Origin: Chryseolinea lacunae
Lineage (GTDB): Bacteria; Bacteroidota; Bacteroidia; Cytophagales; Cyclobacteriaceae
DNA: 64,000 nucleotides
Assembly: GCF_016735595.1 (NCBI RefSeq)
Contig: NZ_JAERRB010000003.1
Location: 485,401 to 549,400, forward strand
Direction of reading: 5' to 3'
The position numbers were made by a program, and so were the translations under genes. The notes under the pieces are model-generated. The model was not told where the DNA came from. It searched no databases and worked only from the letters and a program-made list of their open reading frames with translations. Within the stretch, counting starts at the first letter, position 1, and each line of letters starts with the position of its first letter. Of this stretch, positions 51,393-54,460 are shown in pieces.

Positions 51393-52331
51393 CTATACCA
51401 TATTTACTTTTTCGGCTTCGTATTCTTTTCGAAGCTCGGCAGCCTCCTGCTTGTTCTTCGAGTGTTTGATGTGCTTCGGCACTTCCTTCAAATCCCAGAT
51501 AAGGCCTACGGCTGCGAAGCTTCTCAGAATGTAGTAGGTGATGTCGATCTCCCACCAGAAAAATCCCTGGCGCGCCGCCACTTCATAGTAGTGGTGGTTG
51601 TTGTGCCAGCCTTCGCCCATGGTGAGCAATGCCAGCCATACGCTGTTGCGCGACTCATCGTGCGACTCGTAGCGTTGTGTGCCGAACTTGTGCATGATGG
51701 AGTTGATCGAGAACGTGGCGTGATAGAGAATCACGGTGCTCAAAAAGAATCCAATAAAAAGAGACGAGAAGCCCGCCGAGGTAAACATCGCGAGAATGCT
51801 TCCGCCGTTCACGATGCCACCGAGGGCCATGACCACCAGCGCAAGGATGGTGGGTGGAACCAGGTAGTGTTTGTTCAGCCAAACCAGTTCGGGATATTTG
51901 GCATAGTCGCCAATCACTTTATAGTCGGTTTCTTTGAAGTCGGGACCAACGATCCAGCCGATGTGCGAATACCAGAAACCATAGATCTTCATGGAGTGAG
52001 GATCGGCCGGTGTGTCGCTGTGGCGATGGTGATGGCGGTGATGAGCAGCCCACCAAAGGGCGCCTTTCTGTGCTGTGGTTTGCGACATGAATGCAATCAC
52101 GAACTGAAACCAGCGCGAGGTCTTATAGGACTTGTGAGCAAAATAGCGGTGATATCCTCCGGTCACCCAAAACATGCGGGAGAAGTAGAGGAAAGCGCAA
52201 ACGATCCAATCGAACATCGTTGCGCCGGTGAAGAGCGCTCCCAGAGGAAGCAGGTGGACACCCGCAAAGGCAATCTCCTGTGCGAGAATCGGTTTTCTCC
52301 GTGCTTCCGGTGATAATGTTGAATTTGTCAT
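51393..52331 (-). CDS. Acyl-CoA (stearoyl-CoA-type) delta-9 desaturase
   Basis: A 312-residue integral membrane di-iron desaturase that adds a cis double bond to acyl chains. The three histidine boxes are present: H61-RYFA-H66 with neighbouring K, HHRHHH at 97-102, and HNNHH at 243-247. Four hydrophobic segments flank the boxes. The substrate may be acyl-CoA or phospholipid. It is divergent from the sigma factor gene with 210 bases between the start codons, and has a TACCTTTG promoter element. Confidence 0.93.
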   Translation of the reverse strand: MTNSTLSPEARRKPILAQEIAFAGVHLLPLGALFTGATMFDWIVCAFLYFSRMFWVTGGYHRYFAHKSYKTSRWFQFVIAFMSQTTAQKGALWWAAHHRHHHRHSDTPADPHSMKIYGFWYSHIGWIVGPDFKETDYKVIGDYAKYPELVWLNKHYLVPPTILALVVMALGGIVNGGSILAMFTSAGFSSLFIGFFLSTVILYHATFSINSIMHKFGTQRYESHDESRNSVWLALLTMGEGWHNNHHYYEVAARQGFFWWEIDITYYILRSFAAVGLIWDLKEVPKHIKHSKNKQEAAELRKEYEAEKVNMV

Positions 52332-52396
52332 ACCGACTAAACCAAAAAAGAGGGAAACAAGTGCGTTAAAAAATCAATAGTTCAAGTGCCAGGCTG

Positions 52397-52404
52397 CAAA
52401 GGTA
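52397..52404 (-). promoter_or_regulatory. -7 element TACCTTTG for the first desaturase
   Basis: On the minus strand TACCTTTG matches TAnnTTTG. It would start transcription near 52391, giving a leader of about 60 bases. One arm of the inverted repeat (52410-52420) lies directly upstream, where the -33 region would be. Confidence 0.5.
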
Positions 52405-52409
52405 ATGCA

Positions 52410-52519
52410 TTCGGCGAGATGGTTCCGGAAAGATTTTTAGAAACCCCGGCAAACAACTGTATGGTAGCGAATTATCTCGCCGAAAACACGGATAATCGTG
52501 GTGTGTTATCGGCGATAAC
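52410..52519. promoter_or_regulatory. Operator-like palindromic cluster
   Basis: An 11-bp perfect inverted repeat (TTCGGCGAGAT at 52410-52420 and ATCTCGCCGAA at 52474-52484) and a palindrome GTTATCGGCGATAAC at 52505-52519. TTATC/GATAA half-sites occur at 52472-52476, 52491-52495, 52506-52510 and 52514-52518. The palindrome abuts the sigma gene -7 element and one repeat arm abuts the desaturase -7. A regulator binding here could control both genes. The regulator is not identified. Confidence 0.6.
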
Positions 52520-52523
52520 GTCG

Positions 52524-52531
52524 TATCTTTA
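52524..52531 (+). promoter_or_regulatory. -7 element TATCTTTA for the sigma factor gene
   Basis: TATCTTTA fits TAnnTTTR and ends 10 bases before the ATG at 52542. There is no TTTG at the -33 distance; the palindrome at 52505-52519 occupies that region. Confidence 0.45.
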
Positions 52532-52541
52532 CTACCATTTT

Positions 52542-53162
52542 ATGAGCCGCGACCAAGCCATCACTCTCTATCAACCGATGCTCCACGCTATCGCCTACAA
52601 CATTGTGCGATGCAAGGAGGATGCGGAAGACATTGTGCAGGAAACTTTCCTGAAATGGCTGAGCCTCGGTCCCAAGAAAGTTGAGGACACGCGGGCCTAT
52701 CTCATCAAGGCTGTGCGCAACAACTGCCTCAACCACATCAGCACCCTGCGTCACAAAAAAGAAGAGCTGCTTAACCAGCACACCATTGCCGAAATCATTG
52801 GCCGATTCAAAGAAACCAGCTTTGCCCACCTCGACCTCGATGTGGAGCTCGACAAGGCCATGAAAGTGCTACACACCAAACTTGAACCGCTGGAACGGGC
52901 TGTGTACTTATTGAAGGAGGTATTCGACTTCGACTACGAAGCCCTTCAGGAAACACTCGACAAGAAGAAAGACCACTGCCGCCAACTGCTGTGCCGCGCC
53001 AAAAAGAAGCTTAGCGACGAGACAGCCAAACTCAATTTCGAACTGCCCGACACCTCCAAGCTGATGGACAGCTTCCGGAAAGCCTGCGATTTCGGAAACG
53101 CCGCCGACCTCATTCAAGAGCTCAAAAACGACGTTTCTGCAGCCCCTCAAAAGAAATCGTAA
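52542..53162 (+). CDS. ECF-type sigma-70 family RNA polymerase sigma factor
   Basis: A 206-residue extracytoplasmic-function sigma factor. Region 2 is DAEDIVQETFLKWLSL, which binds the -10 element and core polymerase; region 4 includes YEALQETLDKKKDHCRQLLC. A ~50-residue C-terminal tail extends past region 4. The start at 52542 is chosen because region 1/2 begins there; the frame extends 52 codons upstream without conserved sequence. No anti-sigma factor gene lies beside it, unusual for ECF genes; the neighbours are two desaturases. Confidence 0.87.
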   Translation: MSRDQAITLYQPMLHAIAYNIVRCKEDAEDIVQETFLKWLSLGPKKVEDTRAYLIKAVRNNCLNHISTLRHKKEELLNQHTIAEIIGRFKETSFAHLDLDVELDKAMKVLHTKLEPLERAVYLLKEVFDFDYEALQETLDKKKDHCRQLLCRAKKKLSDETAKLNFELPDTSKLMDSFRKACDFGNAADLIQELKNDVSAAPQKKS

Positions 53163-53272
53163 TATTTTTATCAAAATCTGTCACAAAACGAGTTTCATCT
53201 TGTCTTGCAGTAAAACCCCCAGTGGTTTTGTAGATCTTTGTTGAACTTTTTAAAAAACCTAAAACATTTTTC

Positions 53273-54043
53273 ATGACCGTCATTCTGATCTTCTTCATAG
53301 CACATTGGTATTTGTCCCTTTTCTTCCAGACATTTTTCCTCCACCGCTATGCCGCGCACAAGGCCTTTACGATGAGCCCTTTTGCGGAAAAGGTAACGTT
53401 CATCCTCACGTGGATTTTTCAGGGAGCAAACTACCTTAGCGCCTACGGCTATGGCGTGATGCACCGCATGCACCATGCGTATGCCGACACCGAAGACGAT
53501 CCCCACTCGCCTAAATACGACGAGACCATCTGGAACATGATGTGGAAAACGAAAACCATCTATTCCGACATTGCAAACCGCAAGCTCGTTCCTGAAAAGC
53601 GTTTCACCGAAGGCGTGCCCACCTGGGAAGCTTTCGACAAATTTGCCCGCTCGTGGCCGTCCAGAATTTTCTGGGCTGCTATCTATATCAGTGTATACGC
53701 TGTTTATGCCAACCATTGGTGGCTGTGGCTGTTGTTGCCCATCCAATTTTTGATGAGCCCCGTTCATGGTGCTGTTATCAACTGGTTCGCACACAAATAC
53801 GGCTACAGAAACTTTGAAGTAGGCGACACGTCCAGAAACTTCCTGCCATTCGATTTTCTGATGATGGGCGAAAGCTATCACAACAACCACCACAAAAACG
53901 GTTCGCGTGCAAACTTCGGCGGCATCCGCTGGCACGAAATTGACCCGACCTACATTGTGATAAAAGTATTGCACAAGCTTGGCGCCGTTCAAATTGTGCG
54001 CTACAAAGAAATCAAAATGGAAAATGTGAAGAAGGCGGCATAA
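53273..54043 (+). CDS. Fatty acid desaturase
   Basis: A 256-residue membrane desaturase with histidine boxes H24-RYAA-H29, HRMHH at 64-68 and HNNHH in GESYHNNHHKNG near residue 205. It is shorter than the first desaturase and only distantly similar, so it is not a recent duplicate. It follows the sigma factor gene by 110 bases on the same strand and may be co-transcribed or directly controlled by that sigma factor. Confidence 0.92.
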   Translation: MTVILIFFIAHWYLSLFFQTFFLHRYAAHKAFTMSPFAEKVTFILTWIFQGANYLSAYGYGVMHRMHHAYADTEDDPHSPKYDETIWNMMWKTKTIYSDIANRKLVPEKRFTEGVPTWEAFDKFARSWPSRIFWAAIYISVYAVYANHWWLWLLLPIQFLMSPVHGAVINWFAHKYGYRNFEVGDTSRNFLPFDFLMMGESYHNNHHKNGSRANFGGIRWHEIDPTYIVIKVLHKLGAVQIVRYKEIKMENVKKAA

Positions 54044-54065
54044 GCCTTTCATGTGAATGATATTG

Positions 54066-54097
54066 AAAGAGGTTGTCTGTGAAGACAACCTCTTTTG
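54066..54097 (+). terminator. Terminator of the second desaturase
   Basis: A perfect 12-bp stem AAAGAGGTTGTC/GACAACCTCTTT with a 6-base loop, then TGTTTTTAG. It lies about 20 bases after the stop codon. Confidence 0.8.
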
Positions 54098-54460
54098 TTT
54101 TTAGATATTTCTATGCTAACAACGATCTCAAGAACCGAGGTGACAGACAGATCATTGTCAATCAAGCGCCACTGTTGAAAATCAGTGAGAGTACTCTGTA
54201 CCCTTCAAAAGGTTATCTACTCGTGTTGGTCTGCGTTGAAGGAAGGCAAGCATGCTGCATGACGGACGCGATGGATAATCGTGTTATAATGTTGCATGAG
54301 CAGGTGTACTTCCAAGATGGTACTTTTTTTGATTGTGGCTAGGATCGTTTTTATGGGGACCTCGCCATGAAGACACTCGTACATCCTTGTGATTGCGACT
54401 TCTGAAATTATCGCATTAGTGGACTCATTCGAAACGAACTCCATCAACGGGCACAAATGA
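54098..54460. other. Gene-free stretch, no supported coding sequence
   Basis: About 360 bases between the desaturase terminator and the OmpA-gene terminator. It appears lower in GC than the surroundings. Short frames exist on both strands, but none has a plausible start, a known domain or codon use like its neighbours. The minus-strand frame 54217-54588 has a helix-rich stretch (AIISEVAITRMYECLHGEV) faintly like a helix-turn-helix fragment; I do not call it a gene. Confidence 0.5.

Follow-up and report, generated by a model that had tools for sequence, protein, structure and literature searches.

We focus here on a small locus of Chryseolinea lacunae (Bacteroidota, Cytophagales) in which a sigma factor of the extracytoplasmic function (ECF) type is encoded between two membrane desaturase genes, desA and desB, and on the promoter from which this sigma factor very probably drives desB. 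The window analysed is a stretch of 64,000 nucleotides (contig NZ_JAERRB010000003.1, positions 485,401 to 549,400). All three open reading frames (ORFs) are intact, and their Pfam matches bear out the original prediction of two desaturases flanking one sigma factor (Table 1); the histidine boxes of desB (HRYAAH, HRMHH and HNNHH) can be read by eye in its translation. The prediction that no anti-sigma gene adjoins the sigma gene also stands within a limited check (ORFs by eye and Pfam): none was seen beside the locus in the window, where the outer neighbours appear by eye to be a DEAD-box-helicase-like protein and an OmpA-type lipoprotein-like protein, relatives not having been searched systematically.

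Table 1. Features of the desA-sigma-desB locus, in window positions.
Feature	Position	Strand	Remarks
Predicted ECF41-type desB promoter, TGTCACA-N15-TGTCT	53179-53205	+	-35 TGTCACA 53179-53185; -10 region TGTCT 53201-53205
ECF sigma factor, 206 aa	52542-53162	+	intact ORF; Pfam Sigma70_r2 and Sigma70_r4_2; ECF41-derived by sequence, without C-terminal SnoaL_2
desB, membrane fatty-acid desaturase, 256 aa	53273-54043	+	intact ORF; Pfam FA_desaturase; proposed direct sigma target
desA, membrane desaturase, 312 aa	51393-52331	-	intact ORF; Pfam FA_desaturase; divergent from sigma; no ECF41-type promoter
Sigma -7 element TATCTTTA, Bacteroidota-type	52524-52531	+	just upstream of sigma start
desA -7 element CAAAGGTA / TACCTTTG	52397-52404	-	read from sequence, aligned across loci
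11-bp perfect inverted repeat	arms 52410-52420 / 52474-52484		not conserved beyond L002
15-bp gapped palindrome GTTATC-GGC-GATAAC	52505-52519		absent from 9/9 other divergent desA/sigma loci
Four half-sites	TTATC at 52472, 52506; GATAA at 52491, 52514		in the desA-sigma gap
Intrinsic-terminator-like hairpin, strong	54064-54097	+	3' of desB

The sigma-desB gap contains a feature that the original prediction did not mention, a predicted promoter of the ECF41 type. The published ECF41 promoter, as given in PMC3426412, consists of TGTCACA, 16 ± 1 bp and CGTC. The window has TGTCACA-N15-TGTCT, and the sigma-desB gaps of relatives likewise show, ahead of desB, TGTCACA, a spacer mostly of 15 nt and TGTCT; the -10 region of relatives is mostly TGTC and not CGTC, a form that some ECF41 promoters in PMC3426412 also have. 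Across the relatives surveyed, the constant neighbour of the sigma gene is desB, not desA. When 50 desB upstream regions were aligned on the heptamer (49 with TGTCACA, one with TGTAACA), the identity of the heptamer was uninformative by construction; at a fixed distance from it lies a -10 block with G in 78%, T in 76%, C in 74% and T in 90% of the regions, and the spacer is near background.

The motif tracks the sigma factor across genomes, also where sigma and desB are apart. We counted TGTCACA in the 200 nt that precede desB and called the two genes linked when sigma lay within 1.5 kb. Among sigma-carrying genomes that have desB, the motif is upstream of desB in 49 of 51; desB is linked to sigma in 34 of the 51, and the motif is found in 33 of these 34 and in 16 of the 17 unlinked cases. 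Among genomes without the sigma factor it is found in 1 of 28, and second desB copies lack it altogether (0/5 in sigma-carrying genomes, 0/1 in a sigma-free genome). The two misses are G278, which has the TGTAACA variant, and G010, whose desB contig ends 71 nt upstream and whose sigma contig has TGTCACA at the start of its last 17 nt; G010 was scored as a miss in this count and left out of the contrast test and of the 50-region alignment. The upstream count leaves out five desB copies (G044:C3, G046:C63, G051:C19, G051:C21 and G004:C2). Ten named sigma-desB pair loci (among L034-L046), several of which resemble genomes already counted, were left uncounted; all ten have TGTCACA in the gap.

Some loci show the genes apart or missing together. 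At L175 (genome G179), sigma adjoins desA, the motif is absent from the 3.6-kb locus, and desB, on another contig, carries a 13/13 motif. Within one genus, sigma and desB are both present in G216, whereas G154, G167, G275, G289 and G295 have neither the short sigma form described below nor desB (E<=1e-40); G154 carries a long sigma form. At L019 (G031) and L020 (G034), the short sigma has a neighbour other than desB, in L020 a gene with a nitroreductase-like start (judged by eye, with no search), and the distant desB has the motif in both genomes. At L184 and L187 (family f19), the short sigma is followed by a gene that by eye resembles glyceraldehyde-3-phosphate dehydrogenase, desB being elsewhere in the genome.

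The regulon looks like a single gene. In the 7.9-Mb genome of C. lacunae there are three matches to the exact pattern, of which only that of desB is intergenic, the other two lying inside ORFs. Ten genomes together gave 23 exact matches, nine of which belong to desB, one in each of nine genomes (the tenth has TGGTCT; the desB of L243 was assigned to its match from coordinates), and desB is the only recurrent noncoding target among these 23, the search having been confined to exact matches. A wider regulon was thus rejected at this level, on the ground that, in the genome itself, both exact matches besides that of desB are intragenic, and that the matches of L031 and L253 (two species) are antisense within ORFs. 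ECF41 sigma factors are likewise reported, in PMC3426412, to have an adjacent gene or operon as their only detectable target. desA is not a supported target: as a second target it was rejected because it has no ECF41-type promoter and because the motif stays with desB where desA and desB are apart.

The sigma gene itself appears to be transcribed differently. The Bacteroidota -7 consensus is TAnnTTTG, and a -7-like site lies within 30 nt of the sigma start in 18 of 24 loci. No ECF41-type promoter was found upstream of sigma in any of the 24 (best score 8-10 of 13), and autoregulation was rejected for this reason. Since the ECF41 motif is missing upstream of sigma and the -7 element is of the Bacteroidota type, the supply of sigma is likely the control point.

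We next consider the protein. Its σ2-σ4 core is kin to ECF41: the best NCBIfam models are SigX4/TIGR02957 (148.5 bits against a cut-off of 323.25) and SigJ (124.2 against 271), both below cut-off, and the nearest Protein Data Bank chain by sequence is SigJ 5xe7 (E 1.6e-20, aligned over SigJ residues 16-205). The extension of about 100 residues that marks ECF41 is missing, no SnoaL_2 domain being found by Pfam at E<=0.001 in the 206-aa protein. In its place, two helices are predicted at the C-terminus (residues 171-184 and 188-199), with a predicted local distance difference test score (pLDDT) of about 55-71 in this tail. The predicted model as a whole has a mean pLDDT of 77.8 and a predicted template modelling score of 0.38, and its structure matches, obtained with the whole model, are sigma factors that align mainly over residues 1-165; SigJ is missing from the 50 matches listed, an absence that carries no weight.

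The lengths of the 151 locus sequences (68 short, 83 long, with the window's own copy included and several genomes represented twice) are bimodal, at 197-210 aa versus 279-322 aa. WxPEP is found in 0/68 short versus 79/83 long forms, a DGGG-type motif in 0/68 versus 79/83 and an NPDKL-type motif in 0/68 versus 72/83. DGGG, a motif of the ECF41 extension, is visible in the long sequences here; the DGG of long forms begins at a median query position of about 203 (range 193-229, n=75), which is about where the short forms end. The short forms thus lack WLPEP, the motif that sits in the σ2-σ4 linker of ECF41 (PMC3426412), as well as NPDKL, a motif named for ECF41 in PMC7730460. In a quick tree of distinct cores (61 short, 83 long; 8 of 152 dropped as identical), a single branch, with a Shimodaira-Hasegawa-like approximate likelihood ratio of 100, separates the short forms from the long ones; L025, L045 and L046 sit on long branches and their placement is unsure. 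One sequence cut by a contig end but carrying DGGGK (L095) was recoded by hand from short to long, without which the tree would need two changes instead of one. By sequence, the sigma factor descends from ECF41 and is shortened at its C-terminus, its clade ending roughly at the point where the fused SnoaL_2 sensor begins.

As to distribution, with at most 10 candidates scored per genome, 54 of 291 genomes in a sample of the order have a match, 33 of the 54 being short by open-frame length; in a sample of the phylum 19 of 296 match, with four short forms, all in the family of the window. The 13 short forms seen among the named loci belong to Bacteroidota, mostly under Cytophagales names, including one metagenome-assembled genome (MAG) of Saprospiraceae (L044), in which desB is not beside sigma. 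As the search started from short queries, it may have overlooked short forms elsewhere.

These observations lead us to propose, with considerable confidence, that the sigma factor directly drives desB from the promoter in the sigma-desB gap, while being transcribed itself from a housekeeping-type promoter without autoregulation, and that it is probably active once made, so that its supply would set the output. It would bring RNA polymerase to one strong genomic site, the TGTCACA-N15-TGTCT upstream of desB, and desB would be its principal, perhaps its sole, target. Direct recognition of this promoter by the sigma factor is strongly inferred. Its competence in the absence of a sensor is a weaker inference: the SnoaL_2 sensor, the linker contact motif and an adjacent anti-sigma gene are all missing, and the sigma protein is for that reason probably active once made. 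Moreover, in PMC3426412, Ecf41 of Bacillus licheniformis cut to 204 aa was about 20-fold, and that of Rhodobacter sphaeroides cut to 206 aa about 120-fold, more active than full length, and removal of the whole extension abolished activity; the short forms here, at 197-210 aa, still have the beginning of the extension. Both the missing inhibitory interface and the gain of activity on truncation argue for constitutive competence, in which case desB output would follow the supply of sigma, through transcription and turnover, and not a fused sensor. In addition, the plus strand of the sigma-desB gap shows no terminator-like site, the strong one lying after desB, and read-through from sigma may therefore give a basal desB level. 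A possible role in membrane fluidity is suggested by the enzyme family to which desB belongs.

A broader reading, which we hold tentatively and at somewhat below even chances, is that the self-inhibition interface formed by SnoaL_2 and the WLPEP linker was lost once in a Bacteroidota ancestor, giving a constitutively competent sigma factor for one desaturase; unsaturation would then be set either by sigma abundance alone or by direct sensing through the two-helix tail.

Several points weigh against the proposal that sigma directly drives desB and is competent as made. First of all, sigma presence is clustered on the desB tree (55 rows, which do not cover every desB of the co-occurrence count), with one independent contrast on starred branches and three in all, and because of this phylogenetic clustering the Fisher value of 1e-17 overstates the weight of the co-occurrence; the desB of sigma-free genomes is, furthermore, mostly from another branch, 50-62% identical. 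Second, in G023 and G033, which carry sigma, no desB passes the thresholds used, and the sigma-free G024 has TGTCACA, with a full-motif score of at most 10/13 upstream. Third, the -10 region drifts to GTTT, GGTTT or ATTAT in family f19. Finally, Ecf41 of B. licheniformis cut to 192 aa had lowered activity (PMC3426412), and the natural end of the short forms cannot be placed residue by residue relative to the 192 and 204 cuts. In the f19 loci L214-L219 and L221-L224, the -10 is changed and the -35 unchanged, a possible co-change with sigma region 2.4.

A variant that is compatible with this proposal is that sigma controls desB, but an unlinked anti-sigma factor or another partner acting on the two-helix tail gates its activity. 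The tail has been retained and shows partial conservation, with C182 nearly invariant, which suggests that it has a function, and an anti-sigma partner is reported for SigG1 of group ECF56 (PMC7730460). On the other hand, no partner gene was noticed at the loci, in checks targeted at desA, desB and the helicase and in seven loci viewed by eye, an unlinked partner not having been searched for, and the tail may be no more than the portion without which ECF41 sigma factors are inactive, going by PMC3426412. We regard such gating as possible but rather unlikely.

We consider it very unlikely that the motif upstream of desB is instead the site of another sigma factor, or the operator of a repressor, with the present sigma a mere neighbour. 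Full-length ECF41-like paralogues do exist in some relatives, one of them (G004:C121) preceded, at a distance of 61 nt, by an exact match. The motif is, however, kept in the genome of C. lacunae itself, where no second ECF41-like protein was found: one search gave a single match at E<=1e-25 with 10 of 47 candidates scored, and another, in which all 46 were scored, gave a next best E of 2e-7. It is also kept where the short sigma lies elsewhere in the genome and mostly absent from sigma-free genomes, and its two blocks are arranged and spaced as expected for a -35/-10 promoter.

The original prediction placed the control elsewhere, in an operator cluster between desA and sigma through which an unidentified regulator would gate all three genes. 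The 11-bp repeat, the 15-bp palindrome and the four half-sites are all present in this gap. The arms of the repeat were said to lie beside each -7 element, which holds for the first arm and the -7 of desA, the second being about 40 bp from that of sigma. In 2000 mononucleotide shuffles of the 210-bp gap, a palindrome with 6-bp arms and a spacer of up to 5 arose in 20% and a perfect repeat of 11 bp or longer in 5%; four or more TTATC/GATAA half-sites arose in 0.35%, a figure flattered by the half-site having been chosen after it was seen. The original prediction would by its own account fall if relatives with the same gene order lacked the palindromes, and we therefore aligned ten divergent desA-sigma gaps: the window (L001), five congeneric loci (L002-L006), three loci of other genera in the family (L171, L176 and L178) and a named MAG (L035). 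TTATC-N-GATAA occurs in the window only and in 0/9 of the others, and the operator part of the prediction thus falls on its own terms. The 11-bp repeat is kept solely in the close relative L002, as a shifted 10-bp repeat. Half-sites are scattered, with two TTATC each in L002 and L003, three half-sites in L004, one each in L006 and L178, and none in the aligned gaps of L005, L171, L176 and L035. A regulator acting on these repeats, for which the existing repeats, the post hoc excess of half-sites and their partial retention in L002-L004 speak, is thus highly improbable, the least probable of the alternatives, given the absence of the palindrome from all nine other loci, its chance-like character and the loci with one half-site or none; as conserved operators the palindromes were rejected on the same grounds. 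The coupling of sigma to a desaturase without an adjacent anti-sigma gene survives for desB, through the ECF41-type promoter, and the palindromes are not what couples them. Aligned throughout the genus are CAAAGGTAA (desA -7), TGTATGGTA and CGTA-C/T-CTT (sigma -7); TGTATGGTA, at 52459-52467 of the window, is kept in the desA-sigma gap of 6/6 genus members compared.

How does this system compare with known ones? With ECF41 sigma factors (SigJ of Mycobacterium tuberculosis, Ecf41Bli, Ecf41Rsp) it shares sequence kinship, the TGTCACA -35, a spacing of 15-16 nt and one adjacent target; ECF41 also lacks an adjacent anti-sigma gene (PMC3426412), and none was seen here in the limited check. Unlike ECF41, the sigma factor here has no SnoaL_2, WLPEP, DGGG or NPDKL, and no autoregulation was seen. 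The association of ECF41 with COE genes is also lacking, the neighbour being a membrane desaturase (within 1.5 kb in the 34/51 given above), although about 30% of published ECF41 members are orphans in this respect (PMC3426412). It is thus an ECF41 relative by promoter and ancestry, not by protein features (the extension, WLPEP) or gene context, and probably works like an ECF41 sigma factor on a one-gene regulon, yet is not an ECF41 member as defined. The laboratory truncations Ecf41Bli-204 and Ecf41Rsp-206 (PMC3426412) resemble it in length, in the retained start of the extension and in the loss of most of the regulatory domain; they are artificial, however, whereas here the short form is the natural one of a whole clade. 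Classical ECF sigma/anti-sigma pairs have the same σ2-σ4 architecture, and here no adjacent anti-sigma gene was seen. Elsewhere, desaturases are controlled by the two-component system DesK-DesR in Bacillus and by the repressor FabR in Escherichia coli; these also control membrane-lipid unsaturation, and here a dedicated sigma factor would do so instead.

In the literature searched, which leaves out most subscription papers, and which was screened for ECF sigma factors coupled to a desaturase in Bacteroidetes or Cytophagales and for ECF41 or TGTCACA in Bacteroidetes, no title or opening of an abstract describes this pair, and the word "desaturase" has 0 occurrences in PMC3426412, PMC8999054 and PMC8103513. 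ECF41 sigma factors are reported to answer a signal as yet unknown (PMC3426412). The clade described here amounts to a natural experiment, in which the sensor domain and the contact motif are gone, promoter specificity appears to be kept and the output is a membrane-lipid enzyme. The desB promoter, together with the fatty-acid profile, offers a simple reporter for how a sensor-less ECF41 sigma factor behaves, and the system is a candidate route for the control of fatty-acid desaturation in this group of Bacteroidota.

Some minor observations concern the surroundings of the locus and further sites. Pfam gives no match for the 89-aa ORF downstream of desB (54073-54342). At L031 and L253, which come from two species of the genus, TGTCACA-N16-TGTCT lies antisense inside similar glycosyltransferase-like ORFs. 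At L254/L255, the locus of the full-length ECF41-like paralogue with the exact match 61 nt upstream, a second match on G004:C121 lies about 2.7 kb away, upstream of a gene that by eye is cytochrome-c-like.

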